Part shown: positions 427 to 10,863 of the stretch, piece after piece
Layout: the number at the start of each line of letters is the position of its first letter
Position numbering within the stretch: position 1 is the first letter of the stretch
Assembly (NCBI GenBank): GCA_028678965.1
Contig: JAJRCM010000168.1
Location: 1 to 15,454, forward strand
Length of the DNA stretch: 15,454 nucleotides
From: Methanomicrobiales archaeon
Lineage (GTDB): Archaea > Halobacteriota > Methanomicrobia > Methanomicrobiales > JACTUA01
Reading direction: 5' to 3'
Notes under the pieces: model-generated
What the model was told of the DNA's origin: nothing
Seen by the model: only the letters and a program-made list of their open reading frames with translations
Databases searched by the model: none
Translations under genes and position numbers: made by a program

Positions 427-584
427 AGAAGTACCAGTGTTCCGTCTGTGGCCACATCTATACCCCTGAGGAGGGTGACCCCTACGGGAACATCCCCCAC
501 GGAACCCTGTTCGAAGCACTTCCTGACAGCTGGGTCTGTCCGATCTGCGGGGCAGAGAAGTCGCTCTTCAGGGAGGTGTTGTGA
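423..584 (+). CDS. Rubredoxin
   Basis: A 53-residue canonical rubredoxin: C6-SV-C9-G and C39-PI-C42-G form the Fe(Cys)4 site, with the usual EEGDP and the aromatic Trp37 before the second knuckle. Rubredoxins carry single electrons in the cytoplasm; here the likely partners are the flavodiiron oxidase and the superoxide reductase of the same operon. The start ATG overlaps the stop of the preceding rubredoxin-like gene, and the stop codon lies one base before the fprA start, with GGAGGTG inside its 3' end acting as the fprA ribosome binding site. Because the upstream copy has lost a ligand, this is the only obviously functional rubredoxin of the pair. Confidence 0.93.
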
Positions 585-585
585 G

Positions 586-1782
586 ATGGTGATGCGGCAG
601 CTTGCCGAGGGTATCTATTGGGTGGGTGCCATTGATTGGGATCGGCGACTCTTTGATGCTCTTATACCAACTCCTGAGGGAACGAGCTACAATGCCTACC
701 TCATCCAGGGAAGTAGAAAAACCGCACTGATTGATACTGTTGACCCAAGCAAGGAGGATGAACTTCTCGCCAACCTGAAGGCGCTGAATATCCGGTCCAT
801 CGATTACATCATCCCCAACCATGCAGAGCAAGATCACTCAGGGACCATTGGACGGGTTCTGGCAACTTATCCCATGGCAAAGCTCGTCACCAATGAGAAG
901 TGCCGGGATCTCCTGCAGCGGCTCCTGCTCCTGCCGGATGAGGTGTTTCTTTCCATACAGGATGGGGAGACTCTCGACCTCGGGAACCGGACTCTTGAGT
1001 TCCTCATCACTCCCTGGGTGCACTGGCCGGAGACGATGCTTACCTACCTGCGTGAGGATAAGATTCTCTTTCCCTGTGATTTCCTCGGATCACACTATGC
1101 TGCTTCGGACCTATTTGCACGAAACCGTCACACCATTTATGAAGCGGCGAAACGGTACTTTGCGGAGATTATGATGCCTTTCCGGGGAAGCATCCGAGGT
1201 CACCTGGAACGGCTCAGCCATTTTGAGATCCGTCTCATCGCTCCCAGCCATGGGCCCGTGTGGGATGACCCGAAATTCATCCTTGATGCCTACGCGGAGT
1301 GGACATCGGATCGCATGAAGGACGAAGTAGTCCTTGCCTATGTCTCCATGCATGGGAGCACACAACGGATGGTTGATCACCTGATTGATGCCCTCATCTC
1401 CCGTGGAGTGACGGTAAGACTGTTCAATCTCACCGTGACCGATCTTGGGGAACTCGCCAAGTCACTGGTCGATGCGGCAACTGTGGTGGTGGGGACACCC
1501 ACCATTCTATTTGGTCCCCACCCCGCGGCTCTTTACGCAACGTATCTTGTCAGCGTGCTCAAGCCAAAGACCGCCTATGCCTCGATCATCGGATCCTATG
1601 GATGGGGAGGAAAAACAGTAAAAGTGATCACCGACATGCTTTCAACCACCAAGATGGAGCTCATCCCACCCGTCGTAGTCCAAGGATATCCGAAGGAGGA
1701 AGATTTCCTATCATTGAATGCCCTTGCCGATGAGATTGCGAAAAGGCACCGTGAGAATCCTCTCATCCAGAAAGGAGTGTGA
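586..1782 (+). CDS. fprA: Flavodiiron protein, F420H2 oxidase type
   Basis: A 398-residue A-type flavodiiron protein. In methanogens this family (FprA) reduces O2 to water with electrons from reduced F420, in the cytoplasm. The N-terminal beta-lactamase-like diiron domain shows H79-x-E81-x-D83-H84, then H147, D165 and H222, the full ligand set. The C-terminal flavodoxin domain has the FMN phosphate loop SMHGSTQRM at 254-262 and GTPTILFG near 303-310. ATG 586 is preferred to the longer frame opening at 448, because that extension reads through the rubredoxin gene in another frame, and GGAGGTG lies seven bases upstream of 586. ATG 592 is also in frame. The gene sits between rubredoxin and superoxide reductase, a common oxygen-defence arrangement. 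Use of F420H2 rather than rubredoxin as donor is inferred from methanogen homologs. Confidence 0.93.
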   Translation: MVMRQLAEGIYWVGAIDWDRRLFDALIPTPEGTSYNAYLIQGSRKTALIDTVDPSKEDELLANLKALNIRSIDYIIPNHAEQDHSGTIGRVLATYPMAKLVTNEKCRDLLQRLLLLPDEVFLSIQDGETLDLGNRTLEFLITPWVHWPETMLTYLREDKILFPCDFLGSHYAASDLFARNRHTIYEAAKRYFAEIMMPFRGSIRGHLERLSHFEIRLIAPSHGPVWDDPKFILDAYAEWTSDRMKDEVVLAYVSMHGSTQRMVDHLIDALISRGVTVRLFNLTVTDLGELAKSLVDAATVVVGTPTILFGPHPAALYATYLVSVLKPKTAYASIIGSYGWGGKTVKVITDMLSTTKMELIPPVVVQGYPKEEDFLSLNALADEIAKRHRENPLIQKGV

Positions 1783-2166
1783 ATGATGACCCAGCGGTTC
1801 CAGGTATACCGGTGCCAGATCTGTGGCACGATGGTGAAGGTGGTGAGCGTGGGGAGAGGTACCCTTGTCTGCTGTGGCCAGCCCATGAAGCTTCTCGATG
1901 AGAAGCAGCAGGATTCTGGTAAGGAGAAGCATGTACCGGTCATCGAGAAGAAAGCACAGGGGATACGGGTGGTGGTGGGGGCAACCCCTCATCCCATGGA
2001 GGACCGGCATTTTATCGAATGGATTGAGGTGCGGAGTGGGCCATTCTGTGCGGTCCGGTCCCTGAAACCGGGTGAGAAACCGATGGCAGAGTTCTCCCTT
2101 ACCGATCCCGCGGTAAAAATCCGGGCATACTGTACTGTTCACGGGCTGTGGACCTCCCAGGGGTGA
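1783..2166 (+). CDS. dfx: Desulfoferrodoxin (two-iron superoxide reductase)
   Basis: A 127-residue superoxide reductase that reduces superoxide to hydrogen peroxide in the cytoplasm. The N-terminal desulforedoxin domain has C11-x-x-C14 and adjacent C30-C31, which bind the rubredoxin-like iron. The catalytic domain keeps the square-pyramidal site ligands H50, H70, H76, C117 and H120, and the conserved E48-K49 next to H50. The gene follows fprA directly (stop then ATG). ATG 1786 is a possible alternative, since GGAGTG at 1774-1779 is better spaced for it. Last gene of the apparent operon; a gap of 75 bases precedes phosphoribulokinase. Confidence 0.95.
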   Translation: MMTQRFQVYRCQICGTMVKVVSVGRGTLVCCGQPMKLLDEKQQDSGKEKHVPVIEKKAQGIRVVVGATPHPMEDRHFIEWIEVRSGPFCAVRSLKPGEKPMAEFSLTDPAVKIRAYCTVHGLWTSQG

Positions 2167-2241
2167 TTGGTAATTATCCAGCTCCGCGTCAGCTATGCAC
2201 ATGCCGCCCCGCAGCTGTAGTCAATGCAGTCGTGATTGTCT

Positions 2242-3201
2242 ATGTCTTCCATCAACTTCAAGGAAGTAATTGCTGCATCCCCCTACCGTTTTACCCTTGG
2301 TGTGGCAGGTGACAGTGGATCTGGTAAGACTACCTTCACAACCGCTATTCGGCACATTTTCGGGAACGACCTGGTCTCCACCATCACCCTGGACGATTAC
2401 CACCGTTACGATCGGACTGAACGCCGGGAACGGAGCGTAACACCACTCGCGCCGGAGGCAAACAACCTTCCGCAGCTCGCTGACCATCTCCTCGCCATGA
2501 AACGGGGAGAGACCATTATGAAACCGGTCTACAACCACCGGAGTGGGACGTTTGATCCCCCGGTTCCTTTCACCCCCAAAAAAATACTCATCCTTGAGGG
2601 ATTGCACACCTTCTTCACCTCTTCCCTCCGTGAACACCTCGATTTCTGCCTTTTTGTTGACCCCGACTTGGATGTGAAACGGGAGTGGAAGATCCAACGT
2701 GATATGGAGATCCGTGGGTACCGCGAGGAGGAAGTGTTGAATGAGCTTGCTGACCGGGAACGCGACTACCAGCAGTATATTGCCCCCCAGCGCCAGTATG
2801 CTGATGCCATCATCAGGGTCTCGTACTCCACCTACGGAAAGGAGCTCGGACCGTCCCAGAATATCTACCGGGTCGCTCTCCTCCAGAGCCGGCTGGACCG
2901 GACCATACGGGAAATCGATCTCTCCATTGATCTCCTCTCTCTGCTCTCCCTTTCCGAACGTGACTTTCTTCTTGAGTTTAAGAGAGAAGTGGTCGATGGG
3001 AACGATATGGGCGCCCTCACCTTCGATGGTGAATTAAACCATGCCATAATTCGCAAACTGGAGAAGAATGTGGAGCGCCAGACCAGGGTCCACCCTATCG
3101 ACATCTATGCTCATCGGAGCTATGTGACCGGGGGTGAGATCGCCCAGCTTATCCTTGCCTGGCGGATCATTAACCGCAGGATCTTCATCGGGGATGAATA
3201 A
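2242..3201 (+). CDS. prk: Phosphoribulokinase, archaeal type
   Basis: A 319-residue kinase predicted to convert ribulose 5-phosphate and ATP to ribulose 1,5-bisphosphate. It has the P-loop GDSGSGKT at 23-30, the DDYHRYDR motif typical of phosphoribulokinase and uridine kinase relatives, an EGLH motif after the second strand, and full length. Archaeal phosphoribulokinases of Methanomicrobiales (characterised in Methanospirillum hungatei) act with form III Rubisco in the reductive hexulose-phosphate pathway. No Rubisco, hexulose-phosphate synthase or isomerase gene is visible in the window. An in-frame TTG lies at 2236, but ATG 2242 with GTGAT a few bases upstream is more likely. A uridine kinase role is less likely given the DDYHRYDR context. 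The gene seems to stand alone, ending in a short T run. Confidence 0.85.
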   Translation: MSSINFKEVIAASPYRFTLGVAGDSGSGKTTFTTAIRHIFGNDLVSTITLDDYHRYDRTERRERSVTPLAPEANNLPQLADHLLAMKRGETIMKPVYNHRSGTFDPPVPFTPKKILILEGLHTFFTSSLREHLDFCLFVDPDLDVKREWKIQRDMEIRGYREEEVLNELADRERDYQQYIAPQRQYADAIIRVSYSTYGKELGPSQNIYRVALLQSRLDRTIREIDLSIDLLSLLSLSERDFLLEFKREVVDGNDMGALTFDGELNHAIIRKLEKNVERQTRVHPIDIYAHRSYVTGGEIAQLILAWRIINRRIFIGDE

Positions 3202-3673: not shown

Positions 3674-4486
3674 ATGAGACAGATCGCCCTCTATGGCAAA
3701 GGCGGCATAGGAAAATCAACCACCGCAGCCAACCTTTCTGCGGCATTCGCGGAACAGGGACACCGCGTCCTCCAGATCGGGTGTGATCCCAAACATGACA
3801 GTACCCGTATGCTGATGCATGGGGGCGGGATCCCCACCGCCCTTGACCTTGTCCGGGAACGGGGGACCAGCCCTATTGCCCCAGAAGAGGTGGTTTTTAT
3901 TGGCTATAGGGGAGTACGGTGCGTGGAGGCAGGCGGTCCCGAACCGGGGGTCGGATGTGCCGGCCGGGGTATCATCGCTACCTTCCAGCTTCTGGAGAAG
4001 CTCGGTGCTCTCGAGGGTGATGTGGTGGTGTACGATGTCCTAGGTGACGTAGTCTGCGGCGGTTTTGCCATGCCCATGAGAGAGGGATACGCAGAGGAAG
4101 TATACCTGGTTACCTCAGGCGAGCTCATGTCCCTCTATGCCGCCAACAATATCTGCAAGGCAATCGCTCGGTTGGCGCAGCATGGACGGAGCCGATGTCG
4201 TCTCGGTGGTGTGATCTGTAACTCTGCGAACACCCACCGTGAGAAAGAGCTTGTGGAGCGTTTTGCCCAGGCAATCGGTTCATTTATGATCGGATTCGTC
4301 CCCCGGGACCGGATCGTGCAGCTCGCTGAACTCCATCGCCAGACGGTGGTGGAGTACGCCCCTTCATCCGACCAGGCGAATGTGTACCGCACCCTTGCTG
4401 CAGCAATCCTCAAGAACAAACAATTCACTATCCCCTCCCCTCTTGAGACTGACCGGCTGGAGGCCCTCGCGTTCGAGTATGCTTGA
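3674..4486 (+). CDS. NifH-like ATPase (nitrogenase-like iron protein)
   Basis: A 270-residue iron protein of the nitrogenase reductase family: a homodimer with one bridging [4Fe-4S] cluster that delivers low-potential electrons to a component-1 partner on ATP hydrolysis. Walker A is GKGGIGKST (8-16); the cluster ligands are C95 in GCAGRG and C128 in [10 protein letters not shown]; the switch region [11 protein letters not shown] matches nitrogenase NifH closely. R98 is the position ADP-ribosylated in NifH. The relatives in methanogens are authentic NifH and CfbC of coenzyme F430 synthesis. The partners downstream are neither NifDK length nor a single CfbD, so a separate nitrogenase-like system is inferred. 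No upstream in-frame start is possible (TAG at 3647-3649), and no clear ribosome binding site is seen. A long leader follows the box A at 3500. Confidence 0.88.
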
Positions 4487-4506
4487 GAAAGTGAATTTTT
4501 CGGGTC

Positions 4507-4514
4507 TTTATATC
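4507..4514 (+). promoter_or_regulatory. Box A promoter candidate before the component-1-like genes
   Basis: TTTATATC matches the archaeal box A and would put a transcription start near 4535-4540, immediately before the palindrome at 4541. It suggests that the two downstream genes can be transcribed independently of the NifH-like gene, leaving a leader of about 110 bases. Confidence 0.4.
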
Positions 4515-4540
4515 TGAGTTACACTTCGCTCCTCCATTCC

Positions 4541-4554
4541 AAGGTTCGAACCTT
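4541..4554. repeat. Perfect 14-base palindrome resembling a tRNA T-arm
   Basis: AAGGTTCGAACCTT is its own reverse complement. Read as RNA, 4540-4556 forms a five-pair stem around a TTCGAAC loop, as in a tRNA T-arm. It lies at the predicted transcription start of the downstream genes. No matching acceptor, D or anticodon arms are found, so it is not a tRNA gene; an operator is the simplest reading. Confidence 0.5.
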
Positions 4555-4595
4555 TGACGTCATTCTTGCATTCCGTATCATCCTGCTCCATCCGT

Positions 4596-4636
4596 GTGAT
4601 TAAATAACAGTATCACCAAAATTTGTGTTAGCACAA
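4596..4636. repeat. Two short inverted repeats upstream of the NifD-like start
   Basis: GTGAT (4596-4600) pairs with ATCAC (4612-4616) across 11 bases, and TTGTG-ttag-CACAA spans 4623-4636, ending 13 bases before the ATG. They could be regulator sites or leader RNA hairpins near the start codon, which has no evident ribosome binding site. Arms of five bases can arise by chance. Confidence 0.35.
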
Positions 4637-4649
4637 CCGGATTTTCTCA

Positions 4650-5696
4650 ATGAATGTGATCCCCCATATCACCGAATCGTTACGGCTTGAAGGTTGCACC
4701 ATTCTCGGTGCTCTCTCCATTACTACCGCAATCCGTGACGCGGTGACCGTTATCCACGGCCCTTCTGGGTGCACCCAGCACAATTTTTCTCTCCTCCACG
4801 CTACATTTCTCGCAGACGGTATCGCTGCCCTTCCCCACCTCCTGTCTACCCATCTCACCGAAGATGAGATCATCTTCGGCGGAGAGGAAGTGCTGGAGAC
4901 CCTCCTCAAAGATATCTCAGCACCGGGTCCGGGCTGCATTTTTGTGCTCAGCACCTGCATTGTCGATACCATCGGTGACGATACCTCAGCAGTCTGTCGA
5001 AAATCCTGGGGGGTTCCGGTAATCTACCTCCCCACCGCCGGCTTCCTGGGTGGCGGATTTAACCAGGGTCTTATCAATACCCTTATGACCCTCTCCCACA
5101 GGATCGAACCTGTTGAAAAGCAGCCTCTCACGGTGGCACTGATCGGTGAGAAGAATCTGGAATATGAGGTGGAGACGAACTATGCTGAGATCACCCGCCT
5201 TCTGAATTTATTAGGTGTTCGGGTCGAGCTCCGGTTTGTACGCGACTTGTGCTTCGCCGATATTGATCGTCTCGGTGGGGCAGCGCTCAATATCCTCCGT
5301 GAACCCCTGCTCGCACCAGTCGGGCAGATGCTCGAGTGGAAATTCGGAACCCCGTTCATCGACTGCATGCCGGAGGGTTTCTCGGGCACCCTCCGGTTTC
5401 TCGCCGAGGTAGCCCACCACCTTGATCTGGATGTTCCTCCCGCTCTTCGGAAGGAGACGGCTCACCAGGATGAGGTGTGTGCGAAGTTCGCGGACTTCAG
5501 GGGAGTTGCGGTGAATTTCGGAGCCGAACATCGCCTTTCCGGCATACCCGCCATCGATGAAGTAGTCACTACCCTCGGCCTCCAACCCACCGGTGAAGGA
5601 GTGATGCTACCCCTGCCGGTCCCTGTCCCGATCGGTACAGCGGGGATGGAACGGCTCCTGCACCGCTGGAGGAGGGTGATCCATGTCTCATTGTGA
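4650..5696 (+). CDS. Nitrogenase component-1-like subunit, short (first of pair)
   Basis: A 348-residue protein of the NifD/K/E/N superfamily. Cluster-type cysteines are present at C16 (EGCTILGA), C41 (HGPSGC) and C103 (STCIVDTIGDD), each in the context that binds the P-cluster or an equivalent [4Fe-4S] cluster; FGGEE at 76-80 is also typical. At the position of the NifD FeMo-cofactor cysteine (motif LNLxxC) this protein has ALNILRE at 212-218, so that ligand is absent. The third Rossmann domain looks cut short: after about residue 285 only a partial domain and a Pro-rich tail remain, against about 480 residues in NifD. The length resembles CfbD, the F430 enzyme subunit, but the N-terminal motifs differ and a second subunit follows. 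Its stop overlaps the next gene by 14 bases. Substrate unknown. Confidence 0.82.
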   Translation: MNVIPHITESLRLEGCTILGALSITTAIRDAVTVIHGPSGCTQHNFSLLHATFLADGIAALPHLLSTHLTEDEIIFGGEEVLETLLKDISAPGPGCIFVLSTCIVDTIGDDTSAVCRKSWGVPVIYLPTAGFLGGGFNQGLINTLMTLSHRIEPVEKQPLTVALIGEKNLEYEVETNYAEITRLLNLLGVRVELRFVRDLCFADIDRLGGAALNILREPLLAPVGQMLEWKFGTPFIDCMPEGFSGTLRFLAEVAHHLDLDVPPALRKETAHQDEVCAKFADFRGVAVNFGAEHRLSGIPAIDEVVTTLGLQPTGEGVMLPLPVPVPIGTAGMERLLHRWRRVIHVSL

Positions 5697-6813
5697 GAAT
5701 CCGCTCTGGCCCTGTGCTATGACTGGAGCTGTTGCCTGTCTCGCGGGGTTTGAGGATGTGGCAGTGATCGTCCACGGGTCGAGTGGCTGTTACTTTTATC
5801 CCGCATCCCTCCTGCCCTATCCTATCTATGGATCCCACCTTCTGGAGACCGAGATTATTTTCGGGTCGGGATCACGTCTCCAGGATGTGGTCACCCGTAT
5901 GCCTGGCACCCACGCTGCGGTTGCCGTGGTAACCACCTGTGTTCCCTCACTCGTGGGGGAAGATATTCATGCCCTCCTCGCTGGGGTGGGGGGAGTGCTC
6001 GTTGTGGATGCTCCGGGGTTCATCGGTCAGTTCGAGCGGGGGTGGCAGGCCGCTCAGCAGGTGCTCCCTGCACGCGTGGATCCAGAGAAGACTGGCGTAA
6101 ATATCGATGGATTGAACCCTATTGATCCGTTCTACCGGGGCAATGTTCTTGAAGCCCGGCGCCTTCTCTCTCTCGCAGGGCTCTCTCCTGGCACGTTCTT
6201 TTCCTCCGATCGGTTCCAGTCCCTCTCCCAATCGGGGGCATACACCCTCTCCACCAATCCCGATCTGACCGGAACTGTGGGAACACCGGCTGGCTCTCTC
6301 CTCGGTCTGGAGGCTACCCGCCGGGCCTTCAGAACCCTCGGAGATCGGTACCCGGCAATGGATGGTGATGCTGTGGAGAAGGAGATCGCTCGTGCAGAAG
6401 AACGCATCAGCAAGGTGTGTGATAAATTTCTCCGCCGCCATAACCCTCCGGCAGTCGCCATATTCGGCTCCCGCTCCTACGCTCTTCATGCGGCCGACCT
6501 CCTCACCTACTCCCTCGATGCTTCAATCCTGTGCATAGGATCCCGAAATGGTCCGGTGCACGCTGCCTATCCGGCGGAGGAGATGACCGAGTTCCCCTCC
6601 ATTAAGGAGCGTATCGAGAGGGATCATCCTGACCTGGTGCTGGGCTCCTCATACGAACAGTCGGTATGCGGTGATGCAGCCTTTGTTCCACTGACCCCGC
6701 CAATTCGGGGAAGGATCTTCCTCCATGCCCGTCCTCTTATCGGACCCGAGGGAGCTCTCCTTTTGATCGAGGAGGTGCTCAATGGCTGCCTGGACAGGAT
6801 GAAGAAAAGATAG
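5683..6813 (+). CDS. Nitrogenase component-1-like subunit (second of pair)
   Basis: A 376-residue NifD/K/E/N superfamily protein, likely the partner of the preceding subunit. Cluster cysteines are C11 (WPCAMTGA), C36 (HGSSGC) and C86 (TTCVPSLVGED), with extra C4 and C19 near the N terminus. Unlike its partner it keeps a third domain, ending in PLIGPEGALLLIEEVLN (351-367), close to the end motif of NifD and NifE-like proteins. No Cys is seen where NifD binds FeMo-cofactor. A strong ribosome binding site, GGAGGGTGAT, lies two bases before ATG inside the upstream gene, and the 14-base overlap points to coupled, equal synthesis, as for a heteromeric complex. Dark-operative chlorophyll reductases, NifEN and methylthio-alkane reductases share this fold; none fits the lengths and context well. 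Confidence 0.82.
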   Translation: MSHCENPLWPCAMTGAVACLAGFEDVAVIVHGSSGCYFYPASLLPYPIYGSHLLETEIIFGSGSRLQDVVTRMPGTHAAVAVVTTCVPSLVGEDIHALLAGVGGVLVVDAPGFIGQFERGWQAAQQVLPARVDPEKTGVNIDGLNPIDPFYRGNVLEARRLLSLAGLSPGTFFSSDRFQSLSQSGAYTLSTNPDLTGTVGTPAGSLLGLEATRRAFRTLGDRYPAMDGDAVEKEIARAEERISKVCDKFLRRHNPPAVAIFGSRSYALHAADLLTYSLDASILCIGSRNGPVHAAYPAEEMTEFPSIKERIERDHPDLVLGSSYEQSVCGDAAFVPLTPPIRGRIFLHARPLIGPEGALLLIEEVLNGCLDRMKKR

Positions 6814-9969: not shown

Positions 9970-10863
9970 TTACCGCTTGATAGCCTTTTTCTTGATATAG
10001 CGCAGGGCTTTATCATCGGAAACTTCCTCCGGTCCCTTTTCACCGGTTGGTTTCTCACCCTCAGCCTCAGAGCGTTCGAGCTGATCCCGGAGATACGAGT
10101 CCCGCCACCGCGAAAGGGCGGTCTCATAGTTCAAGGCTTCGATGATCGGCTCGATCTCGCGAGCGTCCCCAATCCGTTGGAGAAGGTCTGACTCCCACTT
10201 GAGCACCTTCTCCTCATCCTTGAGAACCGTGGAGACGGGCTCCATGCGCATCACGTCCTGGATCTTCCCCAGCGACTCATCCTCTTCCCCGCGGACCCAC
10301 TTACTGCGGTACTTGAATGCCTTGACCAGGGGCTGGATGCTTGTCTTGTCCCCGAGCCGCTCAATCGCCTCGATGTAGGAAGTTTCGCTGTCGTCCCACT
10401 CACCCCGCAGCGCCTGGATGAGCGGTTCGATGGCCCGTTTGTCACCGAGAAACCCCAGGGCCATTGCCGCCTCCCTTCTGACATGGCGGGACTCATCCTT
10501 CAGGCATTCGATAAGCGGTTCGATAGCCCGTTCATCAGCGAGTGTACCAAGTGCCTCCGCGGCATCCATCCGTATGTGCCAGTCGCGGTGCTGGAGGGCC
10601 CTTATCAGGCGTTCCACGTCCTTGCGCTTCTTCAATCGCTCGATATTGGGGCGGAACAGGCCAGAGAGAATTCCCATGTCGCTACCACGCTGGATTACTG
10701 TAACGTTTTCCCATGCCCCAATATAATAATTGAGCCCCCGTCCCCCGTTCCATTTCACCTTCACGTGCTCGAATGTTGTTCCCCCGCAGGTGGGGCATCC
10801 CTGGAGGAACTCGGTCGATCCCTCTTTGAAGCTCTTTTTGCAACGGGTACACTGGTGGGGCAT
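9970..10863 (-). CDS. HEAT-repeat protein with an in-frame N-terminal zinc ribbon
   Basis: An open frame of 297 residues made of two unlike parts. Residues 1-32 are a zinc ribbon (C5-x-x-C8, C23-x-x-C26) that resembles the N terminus of the archaeal Zn-ribbon family OapC (starting MPHQCTRC). Residues 63 onward (MGILSGLF) look like a normal beginning of methanogen PBS-lyase-type HEAT proteins, with about four or five repeats of the IEPLIxAL type between 83 and 220, then a charged tail ending in KKKAIKR. HEAT repeats form protein-binding solenoids; no enzyme activity is visible. The linker 33-62 looks non-coding and carries a TATA-like string on the minus strand about 45 bases before ATG 10677. 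So the HEAT protein may truly begin at 10677 (235 residues), with the ribbon a fragment or separate piece. Confidence 0.7.
   Translation of the reverse strand: MPHQCTRCKKSFKEGSTEFLQGCPTCGGTTFEHVKVKWNGGRGLNYYIGAWENVTVIQRGSDMGILSGLFRPNIERLKKRKDVERLIRALQHRDWHIRMDAAEALGTLADERAIEPLIECLKDESRHVRREAAMALGFLGDKRAIEPLIQALRGEWDDSETSYIEAIERLGDKTSIQPLVKAFKYRSKWVRGEEDESLGKIQDVMRMEPVSTVLKDEEKVLKWESDLLQRIGDAREIEPIIEALNYETALSRWRDSYLRDQLERSEAEGEKPTGEKGPEEVSDDKALRYIKKKAIKR

Follow-up and report, generated by a model that had tools for sequence, protein, structure and literature searches.

What could be the role of a nitrogenase-like gene trio in a methanogen when its catalytic subunits fall outside the sampled clades of the better known nitrogenase relatives? 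The question is raised by a 15,454-nucleotide (nt) stretch of DNA from a Methanomicrobiales archaeon (GenBank contig JAJRCM010000168.1, here contig 68 of genome G000, which is 77.75% complete). This stretch, referred to as the window, carries three plus-strand open reading frames (ORFs), H, D and K, which are judged to be real genes from their coordinates and Pfam matches (lengths in amino acids, aa):

3674..4486, plus strand: H, a NifH-like ATPase of 270 aa (PF00142), the putative Fe protein for CfbD and for D/K
4650..5696, plus strand: D, a component-1-like subunit of 348 aa on the NifD/NifE side (PF00148)
5683..6813, plus strand: K, a component-1-like subunit of 376 aa on the NifK side (PF00148)
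5683..5696, plus strand: overlap of the end of D with the start of K, 14 nt by ORF coordinates

The gap between H and D measures 163 nt. The Pfam E values lie far beyond chance (1.7e-110 for H with PF00142, 3.6e-51 for D and 1.6e-38 for K with PF00148), and the combination of a NifH-like donor with component-1 subunits identifies the trio as nitrogenase-like. The best explanation as a whole, to which a probability of about 0.5 is assigned, is that H is shared by the F430 synthesis protein CfbD and by a cofactor-free tetrapyrrole reductase made of D and K.

The initial annotation, made from the letters alone, had described a NifH-like ATPase with both [4Fe-4S] cysteines and two different, translationally overlapping component-1-like proteins with three cluster-type cysteines each, shorter than authentic nitrogenase subunits and unaccompanied by nifB, nifE or nifN, and this description holds in every part. 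Both cluster cysteines of H are present (C95 and C128). D has four cysteines that are invariant in 20 of 20 alignment rows (C16, C41, C103 and C116), and K likewise has four in 23 of 23 rows (C11, C19, C36 and C86) in addition to C4, which is found in at least 90%. In a 91-row alignment C16, C41 and C103 of D and C11, C36 and C86 of K fall in the columns that hold P-cluster-type cysteines in NifD and NifK. Both subunits are shorter than NifD and NifK, and the window has no recognised nifB, nifE or nifN. At the FeMo-cofactor site the 20 D rows contain no invariant cysteine of the Cys275 type, and in the printed rows of the 91-row alignment the column in which NifD_Dv and NifE_Dv carry their cofactor cysteine is gapped in D. 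N2 fixation by D/K was rejected on the lack of a conserved cofactor cysteine together with the failure to reach any model cut-off.

Neither D nor K passes a curated NCBIfam cut-off. The scores remain far below threshold for the NifD and NifK models (D 73.5 against 653.55; K 56.7 against 427.3), for the CfbD model TIGR03282 (D 37.5 and K 36.2 against 268.4) and for BchB (D 57.7 against 490.35; both subunits are below the BchB, BchN and BchZ cut-offs), and even the best-scoring model for D, NifE, reaches only 100 against 505.1. Representative profile matches of D to PDB sequences are NifE (156.6 bits), NifD (113.9) and BchB (83.2), while the best match of K is NifK (81.5 bits). The AlphaFold2 models (pLDDT 86.5 for D and 89.5 for K) both have BchB as their top VIA-align match, with chains of methylthio-alkane reductase (MAR) ranking close behind the top matches in Foldseek and VIA-align. 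An earlier idea that D lacks the third domain was dropped, since the VIA-align alignment of D to BchB spans 323-330 residues and the part in question is thus shortened rather than missing.

D/K is a real nitrogenase-like heteromer found throughout an order and no isolated oddity. K is present in 39 of 41 relatives, including all 34 that are at least 90% complete. In a phylum-wide draw of 294 genomes searched at E<=1e-30, all 54 genomes with K matches belong to the Methanomicrobiales and none of the about 239 genomes from outside the order has one; G165 is the only order member without a match among those listed. Of the 232 genomes of the order, 209 match K, as do 127 of the 135 of good quality; at least four of the 209 (G338, G405, G407 and G448) have only weak matches near E 1e-25 to 1e-27 that may represent paralogs or fragments. 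The good-quality genomes without K, among those listed, are G165 and the g126 genomes G440, G442, G443, G444 and G446, and the latter group is here called Methanospirillum-like because Methanospirillum is among the best named matches to the H protein of G444. A scan of genome contigs, taken as the best 80 of 145 loci, gave titles naming Methanomicrobiales or unclassified Euryarchaeota bins. The proposed methanogen association of the cluster is narrowed to a single order.

The distribution of H points to a role beyond D/K. H is the sole Fe protein at E<=1e-20 in 24 of the 34 genomes that are at least 90% complete, eight of which are single-contig (G011, G013, G016, G019, G022, G036, G037 and G038); among the remaining ten, nine have two or three Fe proteins and G003 has only a partial match of another type. 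In G000 cfbD lies away from the window, overlapping cfbB on contig 12, and no separate canonical cfbC was found. The slot in which an Fe protein gene might be sought is empty: in 20 of 20 Methanomicrobiales cfbD loci (22 were scanned, of which L074 and L076 lack cfbD) cfbD abuts cfbB with no Fe protein between them. Outside the order, all ten loci holding both cfbD and cfbB have the order cfbD-Fe protein-cfbB; 14 outside genomes were searched, of which two gave no Fe protein at E<=1e-40, and G041 and G085 have Fe proteins but no such locus among those fetched. Moreover, H is kept in its usual place without D/K in G165 and in the g126 genomes G440, G443, G444, G446 and G447, where it lies between FprA/Dfx/PRK-type genes and gene c7 and only 83-175 nt are found where D/K would be. 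In G165 a single Fe protein exceeds the cut-off, and CfbD is the only PF00148 protein. Since H is retained in lineages that lack D/K, it must serve something besides D/K, and CfbD is the obvious candidate. By elimination it is very likely that H serves CfbD, standing in for CfbC in F430 synthesis. The trio had been presented as a closed three-gene system, of which the D/K pair remains and the exclusiveness of H does not. A separate cfbC/cfbD pair had also been suggested as a check; cfbD was found elsewhere, unaccompanied by a canonical cfbC, and the F430 assignment that was to displace the proposal therefore splits, in that H points to F430 whereas D/K do not.

The presence or absence of D/K is mirrored in a few positions of H. 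Among 78 distinct H proteins from D/K-type loci L113 is found in all, and F in five of the six from loci without D/K; E137, nine residues after the second cluster cysteine, is found in 77, against K in all six; L167 in 77, against I in five; and R170 in 73, against N in all six, the H of the window having His here. The D/K-less lineages are close kin, so that these differences are not independent evidence, and residue 137 is suggested as a possible docking switch.

As to the origin of H, it branches apart from canonical CfbC in the best trees, and constraining the two to one clade is worse by 16.7 log units; the approximately unbiased (AU) test rejects neither this grouping (p 0.098) nor H with the H part of a family of fused NifH-NifD proteins (p 0.329) nor H with NifH (p 0.285). 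H passes the NCBIfam models for both CfbC (NF033200, 409.9 with a cut-off of 402) and nifH (395.1 with a cut-off of 394.35). The CfbC score was dropped as proof of identity since L227, a member of the NifH clade, also scores 409.9, and automatic CfbC names are thus unreliable near this score. It may be that H is simply the canonical CfbC relocated from the cfb operon, in which case nothing was replaced and its role is the same. Such an origin is compatible with the AU result and with the fact that NCBI already names many of these H proteins CfbC, but it sits poorly with the best trees, and the two other placements are equally retained; its chances are put a little below even.

The component-1 tree (91 rows, without Mar or Isr rows) places D and K outside the sampled clades of CfbD, which stands apart as a long-branched clade with 100/100 support, of NifDK/NifEN (including NifE) and of DPOR/COR. 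Together with the absence of any passed NCBIfam cut-off this bears out the earlier proposal of a heteromeric nitrogenase-like pair, one that lies apart from the types sampled. D is the sister of the D part of the fused NifH-NifD proteins with support of 99/98. Unlike in that family, H and D are separate ORFs in the window and no chelatase or importer genes lie beside D/K. The fused family is found in g126 genomes, in a few other Methanomicrobiales and in family f8. The neighbours of 18 fused loci, some of them at contig ends, include an ABC ATPase (13), a periplasmic binding protein (12), FecCD (11), CbiZ (10), ChlI/D-like proteins (9), CbiK (7) and CobN (7). Fused NifH-NifD and K genes lie near a B12-type importer, CbiZ, CbiK, CobN or ChlI/D-like genes in L197 (G444:C1:1066000-1082000), L205, L208, L213-L216, L221-L223 and L225, and judging from these gene contents such loci are likely to be operons for tetrapyrrole uptake, chelation and reduction. 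No description of the H-D-K set was found in the literature searched, most subscription papers being outside its reach. One section of Dos Santos et al. (2012) mentions nifH-nifE fusions followed by nifN-like genes as data not shown and contains no description of D/K (PMC3464626), and passages elsewhere term Group VI nitrogenase paralogs putative tetrapyrrole cofactor genes (PMC9391474) or mention them (PMC12176620).

Other component-1-like proteins were encountered in these genomes. A second nitrogenase-like trio in the genome of the window (L011, contig 162, 1277-4962, minus strand; D of 497 aa, K of 451 aa and H of 281 aa) is unrelated to the window's clade. An extra single component-1-like protein of about 395-426 aa lies near cfbD-cfbB on the minus strand in L057 (5927-7117), L072 (5372-6619) and L063 (4855-6129), and elsewhere in two genomes (L074 and L076); it groups with the D protein of contig 162 (92/93) and not with CfbD.

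Compared with characterised systems, the trio shares with CfbC/CfbD a single NifH-like donor, one that is also the likely donor of CfbD, and a component-1 that appears to be cofactor-free. CfbD, as described in a section of PMC11423573, is however a homodimer of one subunit, whereas D and K are two different subunits with three cluster cysteines each, and H lies outside the cfbD-cfbB slot. DPOR (BchL/BchN/BchB) is likewise a cofactor-free heteromer, but differs in clade and in cluster ligands. NifEN and NifDK have the P-cluster-type cysteine set in both subunits, as D/K do, and differ in their conserved cofactor cysteine and greater length. MarHDK and IsrHDK (isethionate reductase) are heteromeric group IV nitrogenase-like reductases too, with MAR described as using nitrogenase metalloclusters, unlike what is expected for D/K.

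In the proposed scheme H, as an ATP-driven Fe protein, would serve two catalytic partners: CfbD, which is encoded elsewhere, and the D/K heteromer. For CfbD it would replace canonical CfbC in F430 synthesis. After docking on D/K it would hydrolyse ATP and deliver electrons one at a time to an Fe-S cluster at the interface of the two subunits, each of which would contribute three cysteine ligands. From there the electrons would reach an organic substrate in the position that FeMoco occupies in nitrogenase, and no metal cofactor would take part, as is the case in DPOR and CfbD. With good probability D/K is a working reductase fed by H. The likeliest substrate would be a tetrapyrrole, an F430- or corrinoid-type ring to be reduced, altered or repaired, for which the chances are about even. 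A broader scenario, in which the Methanomicrobiales lost or moved CfbC and one Fe protein came to run two reductases of different chemistry, CfbD for F430 and a so far undescribed P-cluster-type D/K tetrapyrrole reductase that would alter or repair F430 or act on corrinoids and was secondarily lost in the Methanospirillum-like lineage, is put forward tentatively, with the odds somewhat against it.

Several observations weigh against a shared Fe protein and a tetrapyrrole reductase. K joins the K of the fused family at only 83/59, and the fused K lacks two of the three cluster cysteines of K, keeping one. Tetrapyrrole-related neighbours of the kinds listed above are missing from five of the 18 fused loci (L217-L220 and L224). 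In the sequence tree D/K and DPOR are not united, profile searches put NifE/NifD (for D) and NifK (for K) ahead of BchB, and the short length of BchB (DPOR-B) may raise its Z score. The D/K locus itself offers no substrate evidence, its neighbours being order-wide synteny. Finally, some lineages produce methane without D/K, which is therefore not needed for F430 synthesis there. A role as the missing precorrin-6A reductase was also considered. CbiJ (PF02571) was found in none of the 232 genomes of the order, including those without D/K, in a search in which the control Methanocaldococcus jannaschii matched and Methanosarcina acetivorans did not. As CbiJ is missing in D/K-less genomes too, D/K cannot be its sole substitute, which weakens the idea. 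The absence of CbiJ itself leaves a step of corrinoid synthesis in the order to be supplied by some other factor.

Other readings place the substrate, or the partnership, elsewhere. D/K might reduce a small non-tetrapyrrole such as a sulfur compound, a sulfonate or another hard bond, with H as the donor, in the manner of Mar and Isr. Parts of the literature describe other group IV systems doing so (PMC11423573; PMC12552129) and the MAR chains are close structural matches, but the absence of a conserved cofactor-type cysteine in D sets it apart from the metallocluster enzyme MAR, no radical-SAM partner was recognised within the window, and this reading is considered unlikely. The NifE score of D would rather suggest a scaffold like NifEN, on which an Fe-S cofactor matures with the help of H, for instance the 8Fe clusters of methyl-coenzyme M reductase (MCR) activation, and NifB is reported in a passage of PMC12176620 to be essential in methanogens without nitrogenase. 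Such a scaffold is improbable given the cofactor site without a conserved cysteine, the lack of K matches in other orders, and D/K-less genomes (g126 and G165, the latter with CfbD) that are still of methanogen type.

The idea that D/K acts within F430 synthesis, as an additional CfbD or an alternative to it, has in its favour that D/K adjoins H, the likely CfbC, and that K, fused K and CfbD share a common branch (94/83) in the 91-row tree; it is hardly probable when cfbD is intact in all 20 cfbD loci examined, including that of the D/K-less G165. In 62 of 77 loci H, D and K lie side by side on the same strand, which could mean that H is private to D/K and that CfbD has another donor. Retention of H where D/K is absent and its position as sole Fe protein in most good genomes make this very improbable, and H shared between CfbD and D/K is preferred.

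If true, one Fe protein for two unlike reductases would bear on the spread of nitrogenase-like enzymes from F430 synthesis. A diazotroph or pseudo-diazotroph label given to such genomes on the strength of nifH alone may reflect no more than an F430 Fe protein. D/K itself is a putative enzyme present in almost all members of a major methanogen order, and the lineages without it provide a ready comparison for finding its substrate.

The 62 contiguous loci are counted among those with all three genes called, a set that includes a few places fetched twice (e.g. L052/L078); most of the other 15 are from Methanoculleus or its kin and have K apart or another ORF called between. The following block precedes H in the window and occurs in many genomes of the order:

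448-3201, plus strand: FprA-type flavodiiron protein, desulfoferrodoxin and phosphoribulokinase-family gene, upstream of H

Across the order the common upstream synteny comprises FprA, Dfx, PRK and a membrane protein that by eye resembles TrkH, and convergent LeuC/LeuD/IPMDH genes are common downstream. As a clue to function this neighbourhood gave nothing, the upstream block being retained where D/K is absent, and any connection of D/K with the oxygen-defence genes, such as a part in the repair of oxidised F430, would be a guess only. Further along the window, at 9970-10863 on the minus strand, an OapC-type N-terminus (PF09845) is followed by HEAT repeats, an unusual combination.

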